A DNA stretch of 64,000 bases. Origin: an uncultured Rubrobacteraceae bacterium (GTDB lineage: Bacteria > Actinomycetota > Rubrobacteria > Rubrobacterales > Rubrobacteraceae). The position numbers were made by a program, and so were the translations under genes. A model generated the notes under the pieces. The model saw nothing but the letters and a program-made list of their open reading frames with translations. It did not search any database and was not told the DNA's origin. Where the stretch lies: the NCBI GenBank assembly GCA_902806095.1, contig CADCVF010000069.1, positions 1-64,000 on the forward strand, in the 5' to 3' direction. Shown piece after piece: positions 2,759-63,394 of this stretch (position 1 is its first letter; every line of letters begins with the position of its first letter).

Positions 2759-2976
2759 CCCGCCGCCTGTTCCAGGCGACTTGTCAGCATCTCAGCATTC
2801 GCGCGTGCACGTCCTTGCTGACATGCTGAAAGCGTAGCCCGAAGGGCGTAGCGTGCTGAGAAGCGAAGGCGAAGCCTGAGCGTGCTGAAGTGCTCGTCGT
2901 GCGGAAGACGCTTGAGCCTTCTGCACTACGACATGTTGATTCCGGGATCACGAGCGGTTAGCATTCGCGCGTTACA
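2759..2976. repeat. Dispersed TCAGCA/TGCTGA element, copy 1
   Basis: This is the first copy of a mosaic element found throughout the window. The left part carries TCAGCATCTCAGCA and the right part carries TGCTGACATGCTGAAA and GTGCTGA units, so the two parts are inverted relative to each other. Small hairpins such as GCCCGAAGGGC are embedded. A 13-base piece, AGCATTCGCGCGT, occurs at about 2794 and again near 2959. The copy begins shortly after the proS stop codon. Confidence 0.7.
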
Positions 2977-4092: not shown

Positions 4093-4217
4093 CTCGCATC
4101 GAGAGCGGTGGAGGGAACTGGCCCCGAGAAACCGCGGCAACCCACGGGTAGCTGTGAGCTACTCCCGCAAGGTGCCAAATCCAGCAGGACGGTCATTACC
4201 GTCCTGGAAGATGTGAG
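4093..4217 (+). promoter_or_regulatory. SAM-I (S-box) riboswitch
   Basis: The leader carries the S-box core: GGTGGAGGGAACTGGCCC, then GAAACCGCGGCAACCC, then AAGGTGCCAAATCC. The closing helix P1 pairs CTCGCATC (4093-4100) with GATGTGAG (4210-4217). P3 is a hairpin around GGGTAGC and GCTACTCCC, and P4 is a perfect hairpin CAGGACGG/CCGTCCTG at about 4185-4206. SAM-I riboswitches turn off methionine and SAM genes when S-adenosylmethionine is abundant. Downstream, TTCTACG near 4235 can pair with CGTAGAA near 4260. No obvious U-tract terminator is seen, so control may act on translation. Confidence 0.93.
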
Positions 4218-4301: not shown

Positions 4302-8005
<3,704 letters not shown>

Positions 8006-14400: not shown

Positions 14401-14906
14401 TGTGGGTAGGGGGGCTGGCGACTTCGGTGCGAACCAACACGACGCGCAAGGGTGACATGATGGCCACGCTGCAGCTCGACGACACGCGGGGCTTCGCCGA
14501 GGTCATGGTCTTCCCGCGGGTCTACGCCAAATGCTCAGCGTGCGTGCGCGAGGATGCAGTCCTCAAGGTCAAGGGCAAAGTCGAGATGAAAGAAGGCATC
14601 CCGCGCATCGTGGCGCTGGAGATGGAGGAGTTGCACCTCGAGCCCGGGGCAGACCCCGTTTACCTCGACGCCGGCGCCTTCGTCGGCATCTCGCGGAAGG
14701 TCGCGCAGGAGGCGTTCGAGCTTCTGCGGCGGTATCCTGGCGAGAGCCCAGTCTTTCTCGTCTCCGGCACCGGCATGCTCGAGGAGAAGGTCGGTGCCAT
14801 CGCTGATACTTCCGACCTGCACGCCGAGCTCAAGCAACTCCTCGGAGCCAGATGTCTCACGTACACATCCCCCGCCGCCGAGCAGGAGATGGAGCAGGTA
14901 TCTTAG
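11403..14906 (+). CDS. dnaE: DNA polymerase III alpha subunit
   Basis: The replicative polymerase catalytic subunit, 1167 residues, the DnaE1 size. An N-terminal PHP domain begins with HLHCHSEYSMLDG. The polymerase active site includes GPGRGSAAGS near residue 358 and PDVDIDFS at about 398-405 with two catalytic Asp. FNKSHSACYSFLAFQTAYLKAH marks the fingers region, helix-hairpin-helix segments follow, and an OB fold lies near residue 1000 (IVWVGGLATSVR). Start TTG 11403 is supported by GGAGGAAGG immediately upstream and by the family N-terminus. Confidence 0.96.
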   Translation: MAVTSGGAFAHLHCHSEYSMLDGASRIRDLISFARDQGMPGLALTDHGVMYGAVKFYKEAKDAGIKPLVGCEVYVTADRKDRSRAPYYHLTLIARTAEGYRNLMKLSTCGFLEGFYYKPRVDMEMLRKHGRGIICLSGCLSAEVPTRILEGRPDEARSLLLEYAEIFDDVYLELQDHGIEQQRRVNEGLVKLHKETGVPLVAANDSHYTTRNDARMHDVLLCIGTGKFYNDPNRMKFSGEEFYVKTVEEMARIFPDHPDALENTIKVVESVEDVGIELGKTRLPNFPKPEGYTADQYLREQCERGLVTRYGGRAKSREVLGRLEFELETIGKMGFADYFLIVWDFVKYAKDRKIAVGPGRGSAAGSIVAYALEITDLDPLEYSLLFERFLNPDRINMPDVDIDFSVSGRSEVMRYVTDKYGGIEHVAQIITFGTIGAKAAIRDSGRIYQYPYSDTDKLAKFIPEKPVGTTLKDVLRAENGSYVAGDKHPGPAREIMQFVQQDEAAKRVLDTAFEIEGFARHAGTHAAGVVISEEPLTDIVPLQFTKTRGASVDDEELPVMVQHPMSDVEALGLLKVDFLGLRNLDVIEETLETIRRGGGEEPDIRSIPLDDEKTLKVFARGDTFGVFQFESSGMQRMLQEVRPDRFDDLVAMNALYRPGPMDYIPTFKRGKHDPESVKYLDERLKPILEPTYGVAAYQEQLMEISKTLGGFTPGEADTLRKAIGKKNAAMLATLRDKFMAGCATSGVSTEGAEELWNWMEKAGGYSFNKSHSACYSFLAFQTAYLKAHYPEAYMAALMSSVMNTKDRVPQYVAEARAMKIQVLPPDVNESGRRFTVVGETIRFGLSAVKNVGDSCVDSIIAAREEDGPFEDIFDFCERVDPKTYNKRTIESLIKCGAFDNVGPSRAAMVEVHAKAVERSTRGLKGAHEDQFSMFDAAELAPPKPEFPEVEEDQRRSLEWEKEALGLYVSDHPLRPVLHKLKKHTDTTVSDLEGCRDGAIVWVGGLATSVRTNTTRKGDMMATLQLDDTRGFAEVMVFPRVYAKCSACVREDAVLKVKGKVEMKEGIPRIVALEMEELHLEPGADPVYLDAGAFVGISRKVAQEAFELLRRYPGESPVFLVSGTGMLEEKVGAIADTSDLHAELKQLLGARCLTYTSPAAEQEMEQVS

Positions 14907-14907
14907 A

Positions 14908-14942
14908 GCATTTCAGCCGGTCAGCACTTCAGCATTTCAGTT
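14908..14942. repeat. Dispersed TCAGCA element, partial copy
   Basis: GCATTTCAGC, TCAGCACTTCAGCATTTCAG in tandem 8-base steps, directly after the dnaE stop. Only the left-orientation half is present; no TGCTGA half follows. Confidence 0.6.
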
Positions 14943-22752: not shown

Positions 22753-22881
22753 CACGCTCCGACCTTTCAGGTCTCCGCTTGTCAGCATTCCAGCGAGGAC
22801 TACCCAGGCTGACTAGCTGAATTGCTGACAAGTCGTCCGGCGAAGCTGGGCGACGTGCTGACAAGCCGCGAAGCGGCGTGC
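22753..22881. repeat. Dispersed TCAGCA/TGCTGA element, copy 3
   Basis: The element fills the whole gap between two convergent stop codons. It has GTCAGCATTCCAGC on the left, GCTGACTAGCTGAATTGCTG on the right, and a second TGCTGACAAGC followed by the small hairpin CGCGAAGCGGCG. A diverged ACCTTTCAGGT palindrome lies near 22772. Confidence 0.7.
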
Positions 22882-24833: not shown

Positions 24834-24862
24834 TCAGCAAGAAGCTGAAATGCTGAGGGCTC
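24834..24862. repeat. Dispersed TCAGCA/TGCTGA element, short copy
   Basis: GTCAGCAAGAAGCTGAAATGCTGAGG, a minimal copy with one left and two right motifs, placed right after the permease stop and 15 bases before the end of the convergent peptidase gene. Confidence 0.6.
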
Positions 24863-34359: not shown

Positions 34360-34546
34360 TTCAGCACGCTACGCCCTTCGGGCTTCGCTTGTCAGCACTT
34401 CAGCACACTGCCTCCCTTCGGTCGTCGGCTTGTCAGGCAGTCAGCAAGGGCTTGCGCACGCGGAAGCTGAAATGCTGACAAGGCGGCGCAGCCGCCTTGC
34501 TGACAAGCGGAGGCGTCAGCCGTAGCGTGCTGAGATGCTGACTAGC
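34360..34546. repeat. Dispersed TCAGCA/TGCTGA element between hisB and hisH
   Basis: A long copy. The left half has TTTCAGCACGCTACGCCCTT, then GTCAGCACTTCAGCAC; the right half has AAGCTGAAATGCTGACAAGG, GCTGACAAGC and a final GAGATGCTGACTAGC. Embedded small hairpins are GCCCTTCGGGC and GGCGGCGCAGCCGCC. The last unit runs into hisH and holds its ATG. Confidence 0.75.
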
Positions 34547-35925: not shown

Positions 35926-36040
35926 TCAGCTTGTAAGGTCTTCAGCATTCGCGCGTGCGAGTCCTGGCTGACAAGGCGGCGAAGCCGCCGTGCTGAGATG
36001 CTGACAAGCGAAGGCCGCAAGGCCTGAGCGTGCTGACTTG
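35926..36040. repeat. Dispersed TCAGCA/TGCTGA element after hisA
   Basis: TTCAGCATTCGCGCGTGCGA on the left, GTGCTGAGATGCTGACAAGC on the right, with the embedded hairpins GGCGGCGAAGCCGCC and GGCCGCAAGGCC. It ends just before the convergent gene's stop. The AGCATTCGCGCGTGC piece also occurs in the copy after proS. Confidence 0.75.
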
Positions 36041-38418: not shown

Positions 38419-38454
38419 GCGGGTTGAGCAAGGGTTGAGCCTTCCTCAACCCGC
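38419..38454 (+). terminator. Terminator-like hairpin after the PBP gene
   Basis: GCGGGTTGAG at 38419-38428 pairs perfectly with CTCAACCCGC at 38445-38454, and the loop can pair AAGG with CCTT. No T-tract follows, so it may act as an RNA end-stabiliser or weak terminator. Confidence 0.5.
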
Positions 38455-38459
38455 GCATG

Positions 38460-38631
38460 TCAGCCAGTCAGCACACTCCAGCCTTCGGCTTCCGCTTGTC
38501 AGCATTTCAACATGCGCCCTGACGGGCGCTTTCAGCACTAGCCTGCGCGAGCCCTGACTGACAAGCTGAAATGCTGACAAGTCGCTTGGAACAGGCGACG
38601 TGCTGACTAGCTGACAAGCTGAGATGCTGAT
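38460..38631. repeat. Dispersed TCAGCA/TGCTGA element after the PBP gene
   Basis: Left motifs GTCAGCCAGTCAGCACA and GTCAGCATTTCAACATGCG, then right motifs GCTGAAATGCTGACAAG, GTGCTGACTAGCTGAC and AAGCTGAGATGCTGA. CGCCCTGACGGGCG and TTCCAGGCGAC-type pieces are embedded. Confidence 0.75.
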
Positions 38632-38644
38632 TTAGAATAGCTCT

Positions 38645-39097: not shown

Positions 39098-39297
39098 GCA
39101 TTTCAGCACGCTCAGGCTTTGCCTTCGCTTGTCAGCCCGGCGGCTTTGCCGCCTTGTCAGGACGTCAGCAAGGACTCGCGCACGCGACAAGCTGAAATGG
39201 TGACAAGCGAGGCCGTAGGCCGAAGCGTGCTGAAATGCTGAAAGCGGAGCCCGAAGGGCGGAGTGTGCTGAGAAGGCGCGAAGCGCCGGGCTGACAT
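39098..39297. repeat. Dispersed TCAGCA/TGCTGA element before malic enzyme
   Basis: GCATTTCAGCACGCTCAGGC directly follows a stop codon. The right half has AAGCTGAAATGGTGACAAGC, GTGCTGAAATGCTGAAAGCG and GTGCTGAGAAGGCGC. Embedded hairpins include GGCGGCTTTGCCGCC and GCCCGAAGGGC. One of the longest copies. Confidence 0.75.
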
Positions 39298-41255: not shown

Positions 41256-41399
41256 GTCAGCACTTCAGCACGCTGCGCCCTTCGGGCTTCGCTTGTCAGC
41301 AGGGCGGCTCTGCCGCCTTGTCAGCCAGCGCTCGCGTACGGAAAGCTGAAATGCTGACAAGCTGCCCGCAGGGCGGCGCGCTGACTAGCTGACTGGCTG
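41255..41399. repeat. Dispersed TCAGCA/TGCTGA element overlapping the NDH-2-like gene end
   Basis: GTCAGCACTTCAGCACGCTG on the left, GAAAGCTGAAATGCTGACAA and GCTGACTAGCTGACTGGCTG on the right. Embedded are GCCCTTCGGGC, GGCGGCTCTGCCGCC and GCCCGCAGGGC hairpins. The right end lies inside the 3' end of the convergent gene at 41385. Confidence 0.75.
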
Positions 41400-42656
41400 A
41401 TGCCCAAACCCCAGCCGACCGAGCGTTCGCTCCATCGCCCAGTCTGCACCCGTGAGTATCCTGTCACGCCGGCTCTTCATGTAGTAAAGGAGAACGCTTC
41501 TGTAGAGCGCCTGTGCCGCAGGGCCCCGCAGCCTGAGGCCGACGGCGTCGGCAACGGCGCTCTCGGGGCCGAGGCTCACGACGTAGCCCCGGTCGAAGAA
41601 GCGGAAAGGCGGCCTGCCGCGTTTGCTCCGTGCGCCACGAAGGCGGCGCTTGAGGTCGCGTGCGACCCACGGTCCCTGCTGCACGGCCACGGAGGCGGTA
41701 GGTGGCAGGGGACCGAGGCGCGGGTCGGTGTACACTCCGGCGTCACCGAGAACGTAGACCTCGGGATGATCGTGCAGGGTGAGGTGCTCGCTCACGTGCG
41801 CGCGGCCTGCCGCGTCGTGCTCCCCTGGCAACGCCAGCACCAGTGGCGGAGCCACTACACCGGCCGTCCACACCCGGGTGGCGGCCTTCAACCAGTCTTG
41901 GCCGGCAAGGACGCCCTCGGCGCTCGCCTTCTCTACCGGCGAGTTCAGGCGTACCTCGACGCCGAGACCCGAGAGCGTCTTCCTTGCCACCTTATCGAAG
42001 AAGGGGTCGAGCCAGTCCATCAAGCGGTGCGTACCCTCGATTAGCACCACCCGCGGTTCTTCGGACGGCCTTCGGTGGGATCGCTTTCCCAGATAGTCGA
42101 AGAGGGCGGCCACCTCGGCCGCCACCTCCACGCCGGTCGCCCCGCCGCCGACGATGGCCACGGTCAGGGTGCCAGGTGGCGGCGGCGGTCCAGGGCTCGT
42201 GGCGCGATGCCAGGCATCGCTCAGGGTGCCGCGCAGGCGCAGCGCATCGTCCACGGTCCAGAAGGGTTGGAAGTAATCCTGTAGTCGCGGCCCCGGTTCG
42301 GCCTCGACGCTGCCAGGACTTAGGATCAGGTACTCGTAGCCAACGGGGCCTTCCGGGGTTTCCAGGGTCTTCTGGGCGAGGTCTATACCCGAGACTTCCG
42401 AGCGCAGGAACTCGCAGCCGCCAGCGCACAAGGGTGCGATGGGTGAGCTTACGCTCTTCGGATGCACGCGGCCGACCGCGACCTCGTGGATCAGGGGCAC
42501 GAAAGTGTACTCTTTCCTGCGGTCGATCAGCAGAGTCTCGCCTGGCTTACGCAGAACCGGAGGGAGGTGCCTTAGCACAGATGCTCCGGCGAACCCGGCG
42601 CCGAGGACGACCACGCGCGCACCGCGCCGGACGCTCACGCTACGGGCCATCCGCAA
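41385..42656 (-). CDS. NDH-2-like FAD/NAD oxidoreductase
   Basis: A 423-residue flavoprotein of the same superfamily as the protein at 26500. It has VVVLGAGFAGASVLRHL near residue 15, VAIVGGGATGVEVAAEVAAL near 167 and VYVLGDAGVYTDPRLGPL near 305 for FAD and NAD binding. The C-terminal RSVLLYYMKSRRDRIL region may touch the membrane. Its last residues (QPVS) and stop codon are encoded by the dispersed repeat. Starts ATG 42656 and ATG 42650 are both possible. Confidence 0.83.
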   Translation of the reverse strand: MRMARSVSVRRGARVVVLGAGFAGASVLRHLPPVLRKPGETLLIDRRKEYTFVPLIHEVAVGRVHPKSVSSPIAPLCAGGCEFLRSEVSGIDLAQKTLETPEGPVGYEYLILSPGSVEAEPGPRLQDYFQPFWTVDDALRLRGTLSDAWHRATSPGPPPPPGTLTVAIVGGGATGVEVAAEVAALFDYLGKRSHRRPSEEPRVVLIEGTHRLMDWLDPFFDKVARKTLSGLGVEVRLNSPVEKASAEGVLAGQDWLKAATRVWTAGVVAPPLVLALPGEHDAAGRAHVSEHLTLHDHPEVYVLGDAGVYTDPRLGPLPPTASVAVQQGPWVARDLKRRLRGARSKRGRPPFRFFDRGYVVSLGPESAVADAVGLRLRGPAAQALYRSVLLYYMKSRRDRILTGADWAMERTLGRLGFGHQPVS

Positions 42657-44694: not shown

Positions 44695-44820
44695 TCAGCA
44701 TGTCAGCACGCTTCGGGCCTTCTAGGCCCTCGCTCTCAGCAAAGCAACAAGCTGACAAGCTGAATTGCTGACCAGCGAAGGCGAAGCCTGAGCGTGCTGA
44801 CATGCGCGATCTGCTGAAAG
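44690..44820. repeat. Dispersed TCAGCA/TGCTGA element after the hydrolase
   Basis: CTAGTCAGCATGTCAGCACG on the left, AAGCTGACAAGCTGAATTGC and GTGCTGACATGCG on the right, with the hairpin GGGCCTTCTAGGCCC embedded. It overlaps the stop codon of the upstream gene. Confidence 0.75.
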
Positions 44821-44828
44821 CAGATCGC
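44806..44828. terminator. Perfect hairpin at a convergent gene end
   Basis: GCGATCTGCT, loop GAA, AGCAGATCGC. The 10-base-pair stem lies just past the stop of the GNAT gene (on the minus strand) and at the right end of the dispersed repeat. No T-tract, so a terminator role is only likely. Confidence 0.5.
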
Positions 44829-44829
44829 T

Positions 44830-48454: not shown

Positions 48455-48520
48455 GCATTTCAGCTGGTCAGCACTTCAGCACGCTACGCCCTTCGGGCTT
48501 CGCTTGTCAGCATTTCAGCT
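48455..48520. repeat. Dispersed TCAGCA element after sortase
   Basis: GCATTTCAGCTGGTCAGCAC, then CTTCAGCACGCTACGCCCTT, then TTGTCAGCATTTCAGC. Only the left-orientation half is present. It begins at the base after the sortase stop. The CACGCTACGCCCTTCGGGCT piece is identical to that in the hisB-hisH copy. Confidence 0.7.
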
Positions 48521-59635: not shown

Positions 59636-60766
59636 TCAGGCAACGCTTGCGGCAACCCGCTGCGTTCGCACCTGATCGCTCCGTCCGAGCGAGAGGATGT
59701 TCTTGGCGGCGTTGACGTCCCGGTCGGCCACGTAGCCACAAGAGCACACATGCATCCGATCCGAGAGTGTCTTCTTCACCTCCCCCATAGCACCACACGA
59801 GCTACACGCCTGCGTGGTGTTGCGAGGATCGACCGCTATAATCCTCGTACCAGCTTCTTCCGCTTTGTACGAGAGGATGTTGACGAACTGCGCCCAACCA
59901 GCATCGTGCGTGGACTTGGCGAGGCAGGTCCTGGCGAGTCCCTTCACGTTCAGCGCTTCGACCGCTATCAGCCTATGCTCGTCTACTAGCTTGCGGGCTT
60001 CCTTGTGGTGAAAGTCTCGTCGTTGGTTGGCCGTCTTCTCGTGCAGACGAACAGCCTTCTGTCGAGCCTTGCGGCGGCGGTTAGAACCCTTCTGCTTCCG
60101 AGAGACGGAGCGTTGCGCCACCCGAAGCTGCTTCTGGGCCTTGCGGTAGTAGCGTGGTGGTCGAACGGACTCACCATCAGACGTCACGAGGAACGCCTTC
60201 AGCCCGAGGTCTATTCCAACCTCCGGCCCGTCTTGTACCGGTTCGGGGGCTTCTCCGAGGTCGCACGAGAAGATAACATACCACTTGCCGCACGCCTTCT
60301 TCAGCGAGACGGTTTTGATAGTCCCTTCGACCGGGCGATGCAGCTTGACCTTGATGTGCCCGATGTGCTGGACGTAGAGCCTGTGGTTGTCTTTCAGGCG
60401 GCACCCATCGCCGTAGGAAGGGAACTCAACAGTCCTGAAGCGGTCCTCGCCCTTGAACCGAGAATAGCCGGGACACTCTCCGGCCTTTGCCCTGCGGAAG
60501 AACGCCTTGAACGCCTTATCCAGTCTGCGAAGCGTCGCCTGGGCAGACGAGAAATTGGTCGCCGCGAAACTCGCGAGAACCTTCCGGGACTCCTTGAACC
60601 GGGCCGACTGTTCTCCGTAGGAGACGGAGCGTTCTCCACCCTCGTAAGTATCGCGCCTGTCCCTGAGAGCGAGGTTGTAGAGCCTGCGGTGCGTGGCGAG
60701 CATCGTGTCGAGAGCTTCGGCTTGGGAACGGTTCGGATAGAGTCGGTACTTGAACGCCTTCCTCAC
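59636..60766 (-). CDS. tnpB: TnpB RNA-guided nuclease/transposase accessory protein
   Basis: A 376-residue protein of the TnpB/OrfB family. RuvC motifs are VGIDLGLKAFLV (first Asp), LIAVEALNVKGL (Glu) and DRDVNAAKNIL (last Asp), so the catalytic set is complete. The zinc motif is CSSCGAMGE with VCSCG. TnpB is an RNA-guided DNA nuclease that keeps the element at its donor site. Start GTG 60766 touches the tnpA stop. Confidence 0.92.
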   Translation of the reverse strand: MRKAFKYRLYPNRSQAEALDTMLATHRRLYNLALRDRRDTYEGGERSVSYGEQSARFKESRKVLASFAATNFSSAQATLRRLDKAFKAFFRRAKAGECPGYSRFKGEDRFRTVEFPSYGDGCRLKDNHRLYVQHIGHIKVKLHRPVEGTIKTVSLKKACGKWYVIFSCDLGEAPEPVQDGPEVGIDLGLKAFLVTSDGESVRPPRYYRKAQKQLRVAQRSVSRKQKGSNRRRKARQKAVRLHEKTANQRRDFHHKEARKLVDEHRLIAVEALNVKGLARTCLAKSTHDAGWAQFVNILSYKAEEAGTRIIAVDPRNTTQACSSCGAMGEVKKTLSDRMHVCSCGYVADRDVNAAKNILSLGRSDQVRTQRVAASVA

Positions 60767-61165
60767 CTAGCCGCTCCTCGTCTGCTGGGCTGCAATGTAG
60801 CGAGCTATAGTCTTATCCGAGACATGTCCGGCAGCACCCACGTAGTAGCTACGGCTCCACAGGGACGGCATACGGCTCACGAGGTGAGCGTAGCGCTCAC
60901 GGAGGATGCGGGACGTGTAGCCCTTCAGCCGATGCGCTATCTGGGCCGGAGAGAGGTCGGGCGGAGCCTTCACGAACAGGTGTACGTGGTCAGGGCGGAT
61001 AGCAAGATGCTTCACCTCGACATCAAGCTCGGAGGCTTTCTCCCTGAGCAATGCTTCGAGGTCTTCAGCAACCTCCTCAATCAACACTGGCAGACGGTAC
61101 TTCGGACACCACACGAGGTGATAGTTGAGGTTGCTAACGCCGCCCGATGTATGCCGAAGCTCCAC
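60767..61165 (-). CDS. tnpA: TnpA Y1 transposase (IS200 type)
   Basis: A 132-residue HUH single-strand transposase. The HUH motif is in PDHVHLFVKAPP near residue 59-70, and the catalytic Tyr lies in LWSRSYYVGAAG near residue 107-118. It cuts and joins single-stranded ends at the terminal hairpins. Its stop (TAG) is followed at once by the GTG of tnpB. Confidence 0.93.
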   Translation of the reverse strand: MELRHTSGGVSNLNYHLVWCPKYRLPVLIEEVAEDLEALLREKASELDVEVKHLAIRPDHVHLFVKAPPDLSPAQIAHRLKGYTSRILRERYAHLVSRMPSLWSRSYYVGAAGHVSDKTIARYIAAQQTRSG

Positions 61166-62353: not shown

Positions 62354-63361
62354 CAGCCGTTGGCATAAGTATTGATCCTATGCTAGCGTGCGGGCATGAA
62401 ACCTTACTCGAAGGACCTAAGGATCAGGGTACTTGCCGCGGTCGACCGTGGCCTACCAAGGAAAGAGGCAGCGAAGACCTTCTCGGTCTCGGTGCCCACC
62501 ATCAAGCGCTGGCTCAGGCGCCGCCGCCAGACCGGAGGGGTCGAAACCATCCCCATCCCTGGCCGCCCGCGCCTTAAGGGGGCAGCCTTAAAAGAGTGGC
62601 TGCCCGGACACTTGCAAAGCAACCCCGACCTCACCCTGGAGGAGCACCGCGAGGCCTTCGAGGAGGCCCACGAGGAGGGCACCAAGGTCTCCGCCTCGAC
62701 GGTTGGGCGGGCGATCCGCCGGCTTCCGGGCGGCTGGCCGCTCAAAAAAAGTCCCCCTAGCCACCGAGCGCGACGAGGGTTTGCGGGGCTTGTGGAGGTG
62801 GCTGGCCGCCCGCTTCGATGCCAGGAGGTTGGTGTTCGTCGAGGAGTCAGGCTTCCACACGTCCATGACGCGCCTTAGAGCCAGGGCGCCTAGGGGAGAG
62901 CGAGCATACGGCAAGGTGCCAAGGAAGCGGGGCAAGAACCAGACCCTCCTAGCCTCGATCACTCTGCAGGGGCCATGTGCGAGTCGATCTCGATCGAGGG
63001 AGCCACCGACTCCGAGCTCTTCGAGACTTACGTCGAGGAGTTCTTGGCACCATCGCTTTGTAAAGGGCCGGTGGTGGTGCTAGACGGTCTGGGGGCACAC
63101 AGGACGGCCAGGGTGAGGGACCTCATAGAACAGCGGGGAGCGGATCTCTTGTTCTTGCCGCCCTACTCGCCGGACCTGAACCCCATAGAGGAGGCTTTCA
63201 GCAAGATAAAGAGCATCGTAAGGAAAGCCGGAGCGCGTACCCGCGAGGCGTTGGACGAAGCCATAGGCGAGGCGCTATCGGCCGTCAGCCCGGAAGACGC
63301 GGCGGGTTGGTTCGCCCACTGTGGCTACCGAGTTCAAGATCAATACTTGTGAATACCGCTG
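62354..63361 (+). mobile_element. Second IS630-type element, degenerate
   Basis: About 1008 bases with inverted ends. The left end reads CAGCCGTTGGCATAAGTATT and the right end, reversed, CAGCGGTATTCACAAGTATT; both continue GATC. TAA flanks both sides (62351-62353 and 63362-63364), consistent with TA-type target duplication. The transposase inside is broken. Confidence 0.75.
62396..63352 (+). pseudogene. IS630 transposase split by two frame breaks
   Basis: The HTH part (MKPYSKDLRIRVLAAVDRGL to RLPGGWPLKK) starts at ATG 62396. At an A7 run near 62745 the frame moves to KVPLATERDEGLRGLWRWLA and VFVEESGFHTSM. A second break near 62970, apparently one missing G before MCESISIEGATDSELF, leads to the last part with VVLDGLGAHRTAR and SPDLNPIEEAFSKIKS ending at 63352. 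The A7 could be programmed; the second break should be inactivating. Confidence 0.8.
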
Positions 63362-63371
63362 TAACCTGAAG

Positions 63372-63394
63372 TGCTGACTGGCTGAAATGCTACG
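63372..63394. repeat. Dispersed TGCTGA element, partial copy
   Basis: GTGCTGACTGGCTGAAATGC, the right-orientation half only, between the second IS630 and the stop of the transporter gene. The small TAACCTGAAG repeat adjoins it. Confidence 0.5.

Follow-up and report, generated by a model that had tools for sequence, protein, structure and literature searches.

A composite palindromic intergenic repeat built on TCAGC units in Rubrobacteraceae, probably a lineage-specific family of the BIME, REPIN, and BOX kind

Composite intergenic repeats are common, yet their spread and their mutual likeness are in general an open question. The locus described here raises it for a genome of the Rubrobacteraceae. 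What is the repeat that begins just behind a prolyl-tRNA synthetase gene, and how did similar but unequal copies come to lie behind other genes? The window is the whole stretch of DNA that was analyzed, 64,000 nt of contig CADCVF010000069.1. The genome that carries it, that of a soil bacterium, is called G000.

An earlier note on this DNA had named a dozen sites in the window and stated that nearly all copies follow stop codons. All 12 sites are real, and an independent parser recovered exactly these in the window. All 12 lie behind the stop codon of the left-hand gene. The copies, with the parts of the focal element, are as follows.

2755 to 2888, unstranded: focal element, with left arm 2755-2796, 20-nt center 2797-2816, and right arm 2817-2888
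2760 to 2783, + strand: hairpin cassette CCGCCGCCTGTTCCAGGCGACTTG, between two TCAGC units of the focal left arm
2797 to 2816, unstranded: short-center class ATTCGCGCGTGCACGTCCTT, the center of the focal element
2830 to 2853, - strand: hairpin cassette AAGCGTAGCCCGAAGGGCGTAGCG, in the focal right arm
14908 to 14934, + strand: left-arm-only copy, behind a stop at 14906
22776 to 22865, unstranded: two-armed copy, with a convergent gene pair around it
24834 to 24856, unstranded: minimal copy of one TCAGCA, an AAGAA loop, and a GCTGA array, 2 nt past a stop
34361 to 34541, unstranded: two-armed copy; same cassettes in the nearest relative (G008), with altered 8-bp units
35926 to 36036, unstranded: two-armed copy, with a convergent gene pair around it; no element in G008
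38460 to 38630, unstranded: two-armed copy; outer units kept in G008, interior different
39103 to 39294, unstranded: two-armed copy, compared below with the orthologous spacers of relatives
41257 to 41400, unstranded: two-armed copy; outer arms common to G008, interior replaced; no element in G002
44695 to 44817, unstranded: two-armed copy, abutting a TAG stop; no element in G002
48455 to 48520, + strand: left-arm copy of several units and one hairpin; a single TCAGCT unit in G008
63372 to 63385, unstranded: short right-arm copy, behind a DDE_3 transposase-fragment ORF

The focal element begins 7 nt past the stop codon of the prolyl-tRNA synthetase ORF (1317-2747). It had been placed at 2759-2976. 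The element is real, but its units reach only from about 2755 to 2888. Positions 2889-2976 contain no further units, just a TTAGCATTCGCGCG remnant. At the copy at 44695-44817, the upstream reading frame stops earlier in G000 than in G008. The DDE_3 transposase fragment (62975-63352, + strand) lies directly upstream of the copy at 63372.

The search covered the whole G000 genome of 3.83 Mb. It gave 841 matches to TCAGCANNTCAGCA with at most one mismatch, against 12 for the reversed control. The window contained 26 such matches against 0.23 expected from shuffles. The genome-wide total is estimated at about 300 elements, from a parsed sample scaled by exact pairs. That sample contained 119 parsed elements in 816 kb, with a median length of 114 bp, and it was partly picked for element-rich stretches, so absolute element densities lean upward. 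Genes in the sample were called with our own simple caller.

Each full element contains two facing arms of TCAGC units, with hairpin cassettes interspersed and one of several center sequences between the arms. The order that had been described, TCAGCA on the left and TGCTGA on the right, was borne out by 73 of the 86 two-armed elements in the 816 kb; 4 were opposite and 9 mixed. The 8-base step was also upheld. Same-strand TCAGC units were 8 bp apart in 321 cases, 7 bp in one, and 9 bp in one. Wider spacings house the variable small hairpins that the earlier note had placed between the units. Most of these cassettes have the form AC-stem-TTG, and a TCAGC unit stands on either side of each. The sample contained 220 instances, of which 175 were distinct. 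Their stems covary: 91% of pairs were Watson-Crick (20-nt class and best 26-nt frame) against 67% (standard deviation, 3 to 4%) with the halves swapped. The remaining length classes are small and have a weaker covariation excess or none, and the 24- to 25-nt class has little or none. Whole elements folded with a median z of -4.7 against shuffles; control spacers gave 0.2.

Several kinds of center occur. One is an A-rich loop of about 5 to 11 nt, and another is a 20-nt sequence like CAGGGCTTGCGCACGCGAAA. Two long classes measure about 92 nt and, with four copies, about 90 to 110 nt; the remaining centers are singletons. Both the 20-nt and the 92-nt classes occur in either orientation. Many two-armed copies carry AGC(A/T)NNTCAGC as the outer end on both sides, which gives them terminal inverted repeats like those of MITEs. 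The 92-nt center was considered as a conserved structured RNA and rejected; the RNAalifold covariation term for 11 sequences was +0.38, which is no support. A model built from this center, R1, was detected in G000, G008, and G002. Its matches in G006, G014, G015, and G004 were weaker and partly driven by the TCAGC arms. Centers of about 70 to 95 nt were also seen in G006, G014, and G002, including another genus, and some of them begin with AAGTCGTC and finish with GAA before GCTGA. This common start and end across genomes hints at an old shared center.

No element lies inside a called gene (0/119 in the 816 kb). The contexts were 43 convergent, 62 tandem, and 12 divergent gaps, whereas the background of gaps of at least 30 bp contained 89, 319, and 120. 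Convergent gaps are preferred and divergent gaps are avoided. Clustering at gene 3' ends had been put forward as a check, and it was found: 41 of 125 stop-facing element ends lie within 0 to 9 nt against 23 expected from uniform placement (maximum of 36 in 2,000 simulations), these start positions near stop codons being dependent on the called gene ends. Only 1 of 83 start-facing ends lies within 0 to 9 nt, against 10.1 expected. The outer end often overlaps the stop codon, as TAA followed by GCATTTCAGC or AGCTAG followed by TCAGC. In filled convergent gaps, the DNA outside the element had a median of 45 bp, and unfilled gaps had a median of 42.5 bp. This near equality is what additive insertion predicts.

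The repeats are unevenly distributed among relatives. Exact TGCTGANNTGCTGA pairs numbered 287 in G000, 155 in G008, 22 in G002, and 12 in G006, with 0 to 1 in the rest of the genus. Triple TCAGC arrays in 8-bp and 7-bp steps numbered 198 and 5 in G000, 185 and 2 in G008, 134 and 394 in G006, and 28 and 5 in G002. Within one genus, some genomes contain hundreds of copies and others none. Several other genera of the same family contained tens of triple arrays each. Almost no arrays were found in the genomes sampled outside the family, save apparent simple tandem repeats in G061. The reversed controls of this survey were at or near zero. Exact 23-mer matches in named genomes came from the Rubrobacteraceae MAG MGR_bin48 and from an actinobacterial MAG with the same architecture. 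A further exact match, in one proteobacterial MAG, is probably due to chance; it is a single unit pair with no surrounding array. From the named matches we infer that the family is Rubrobacteraceae, within which the distribution is patchy. One array in G006 (C1:1313224-1313269) is unusually regular, with TGCTGA units separated by alternating GA and CC spacers.

Comparison with the relatives shows how the copies differ at shared sites. The comparison is between species and not within a population. In G008, whose flanks are mostly 91 to 95% identical to those of G000 (range, 84 to 100%), TCAGC units lie at the same place in 13 of 14 compared sites, usually with different content. The content was altered by exchange at el14, 38460, 39098, 41255, 44690, el66, el104, and el110. 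At el61, the outer cassettes are common to both genomes, and one genome carries about 111 bp of the interior in inverted orientation (88% identity). At el66, the center is of the 92-nt class in G000, and by eye the G008 center is the reversed center of the G000 element at C3 43964. The spacers orthologous to 39103-39294 contain TCAGC elements with other cassettes and centers in G008, G002, G006, and G004, and a degenerate one in G003. In G006, a more distant relative, 6 of 7 window sites carry TCAGC units by eye, most of them spaced in 7-bp steps. G002 lacks an element at most compared sites. At the sites orthologous to about 38420-38640, a small ORF that starts with MTSGNIQMGPDP is present in G002, G003, G004, and G006, and the element is present instead in G000 and G008.

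Within G000, 202 distinct exact segments of at least 26 bp are common to different loci. The longest, of 69 bp, links the focal element with the element at C18b 15777 and covers the focal units, center, and right hairpin. The ends of shared segments fall at a unit in 55% of cases; random windows drawn from the same elements gave 19%. Segments are shared as often in inverted as in the same orientation. Because two relatives about 93% identical in their flanks hold the same sites with contents exchanged, expanded, or inverted, fast repeat turnover can be read here directly. No clean preinsertion site with a target duplication was found; the element-free sites of G002 also differ in nearby bases. 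By eye, no target site duplication of the MITE kind was seen in comparison with these G002 sites, which are not clean.

The earlier note knew of no named family like this one, and Rfam at gathering scores matched none, nor did searches of the literature that used the sequence or Rubrobacter terms. Rfam placed no family on an element. In four element-rich stretches it found nothing, and in the window it found just a SAM riboswitch (RF00162, 83 bits) at 4093-4217 on the + strand, upstream of the gene at 4302. The literature searches returned nothing relevant; the exact-sequence matches were unrelated papers, apparently chance primer matches.

BIMEs of enterobacteria are mosaics of palindromic units between genes and are frequent at 3' ends. 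They are composite (PMC3049150), as is the palindromic intergenic mosaic described here, which differs in unit, grammar, and lineage and has centers of about 90 nt in part of its copies. REPINs, the REP doublets of Pseudomonas, are mobilized by RAYT transposases (PMC3116915). They share a pair of inverted repeats that enclose a less conserved spacer, a long hairpin with compensatory changes, and hundreds of extragenic copies. Their ends are a conserved REP 16-mer, whereas each end here repeats a 5-bp core at intervals of 8 or 7 bp and takes in inserted hairpin cassettes; no RAYT was found, and interiors are exchanged between loci and inverted. The GTAG- and CGTC-tagged REP superfamilies (PMC3733652) are likewise short hairpins, intergenic and in high copy, and CGTC REPs have no dedicated transposase either. 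The cassettes here differ from these in being bounded by TCAGC on both sides, and GTAG or GTGG was found just 5' of the hairpin in 0 of 197 modules on either strand. A CGTC tag at the stem-loop end was absent among the counted flanks, which were mostly TCAGCAC and GCTGACAA. BOX elements of Streptococcus pneumoniae (PMC3049150) were compared by their published architecture. They resemble the elements here in fixed ends with a variable number of internal modules, an excess between convergent genes, and a stable RNA fold. BOX copies have both terminal inverted repeats and target duplications. For the elements here, a duplication was not established, and the modules are many different hairpins. 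The neisserial intergenic mosaic elements (PMC3049150), set beside ours by description, are also composite, intergenic, and 70 to 200 bp long, but the repeat units here are different.

The earlier interpretation holds in part. The element is a dispersed, REP-like intergenic mosaic at gene 3' ends. By the counts given above, it is a high-copy extragenic palindromic repeat, often in inverted pairs, as REPs and REPINs are. It does not belong to the RAYT-linked, tagged REP classes. Since it is like REPINs, GTAG and CGTC REPs, and BOX in architecture and not a member of those tested, we consider it probable that it is a new, lineage-specific family of composite palindromic noncoding intergenic repeats, BIME/REPIN/BOX-like, that spread additively and was later diversified by recombination. 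Copies would enter gaps of ordinary size by simple addition and would persist at the least damaging positions, downstream of genes and clear of their starts. The later turnover may come from recombination or strand switching among the repeated units and the facing arms, which would swap, duplicate, delete, and flip cassettes. Elements that are transcribed would form strong hairpins in the 3' untranslated RNA; this side effect may be tolerated or, in some cases, put to use.

The same positions could reflect selection if the elements are 3'-end devices (nonclassical bidirectional terminators, RNA-decay barriers, or supercoiling sites) whose function keeps structure and place while the sequence turns over. 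The preference for convergent gaps and for the bases just past a stop, the strong folding with stem covariation, and the places common to G006 at 6 of 7 window sites despite a different repeat type all argue for it, as does the rarity of classical terminators in G000, with or without elements. It is the main rival reading, and we nevertheless hold it to be unlikely. G002 is closer than G006 and lacks the element at most compared sites, elements occupy only 36 to 48% of convergent gaps (by gap cutoff), and genomes of a single genus differ from hundreds of copies to none. Downstream of the element at 48455, a terminator-like hairpin common to relatives persists. Insertion tolerance gives the same positional bias, as was argued for pneumococcal repeats (PMC3049150). 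The terminator class that had been suggested is not supported in its classical form. Hairpin-plus-T-run sites, with the GC hairpin and immediate T run of an intrinsic terminator, are present at 0 to 3% of element-bearing and 1 to 5% of element-free 3' ends; the count for element-bearing ends was 2 of 147. A third possibility had been mentioned, and the TCAGC arrays may be candidate binding sites for a chromosomal protein, with palindrome and hairpins incidental. An invariant TCAGC core that recurs strictly every 8 bp in one lineage and every 7 bp in another would fit such sites. The period nevertheless shifts between relatives, whole cassettes break up the arrays, and a double-stranded site would have no need of covarying stems; this reading is very improbable.

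Other explanations concern how cassettes move. Each cassette could be a tiny transposon that moves as a single strand, with TCAGC as the cleavage site of an IS200/IS605-type or other HUH enzyme, which would make a new TCAGC-tagged REP class. Cassettes are hairpins with TCAGC on both flanks; they turn up at many loci, in either orientation, and end at the units, and within the genus a Y1 transposase is present only in the two genomes richest in 8-bp arrays. A REP-associated transposase had been named as something to look for, and the search turned up none. In G000, both Y1 genes are of the IS605 type and adjoin TnpB. The stretches examined around these genes and around the Y1 genes of G008 contain no TCAGC arrays, so a RAYT association was rejected. 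One of the G000 genes is in the window.

59636 to 61165, - strand: IS605-type pair, TnpA (Y1_Tnp) at 60767-61165 and TnpB (OrfB_IS605/Cas12f1-like TNB) at 59636-60766

The second IS605-type TnpA/TnpB pair is on contig C5. IS605 was the family examined for a transposon with the same ends as the repeat, and its copies carry no arrays. G006 is near complete (2 contigs) and contains 528 arrays but no Y1 transposase match, and other array-bearing relatives have no Y1 transposase either. Together with the missing GTAG/GTGG tag, this makes the single-strand transposon improbable. The lack of a RAYT in a near-complete, repeat-rich relative is an argument that REP-like repeats can persist as a population when their presumed enzyme is missing. 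TCAGC might still be the cut or crossover site of a cellular activity that moves and flips cassettes among hundreds of post-gene loci without a recognized transposase, a speculation that we regard as rather doubtful. Errors of metagenome assembly could also mimic exchanged interiors, given 640 contigs in G008 and 85 in G000. The same architecture is present in the 2 contigs of G006, and ordinary reads should span elements with a median of 114 bp; assembly error is extremely unlikely.

A second recurring palindrome, for example GCGATCTGCTGAAAGCAGATCGC, was observed at 44812-44829 in the window, between the element and the gene stop. It was seen again at C24 near 113200 and 175000 and at C5 near 7738. 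In G008 it carries the matching compensatory change GCGAGCCGCT/AGCGGCTCGC.
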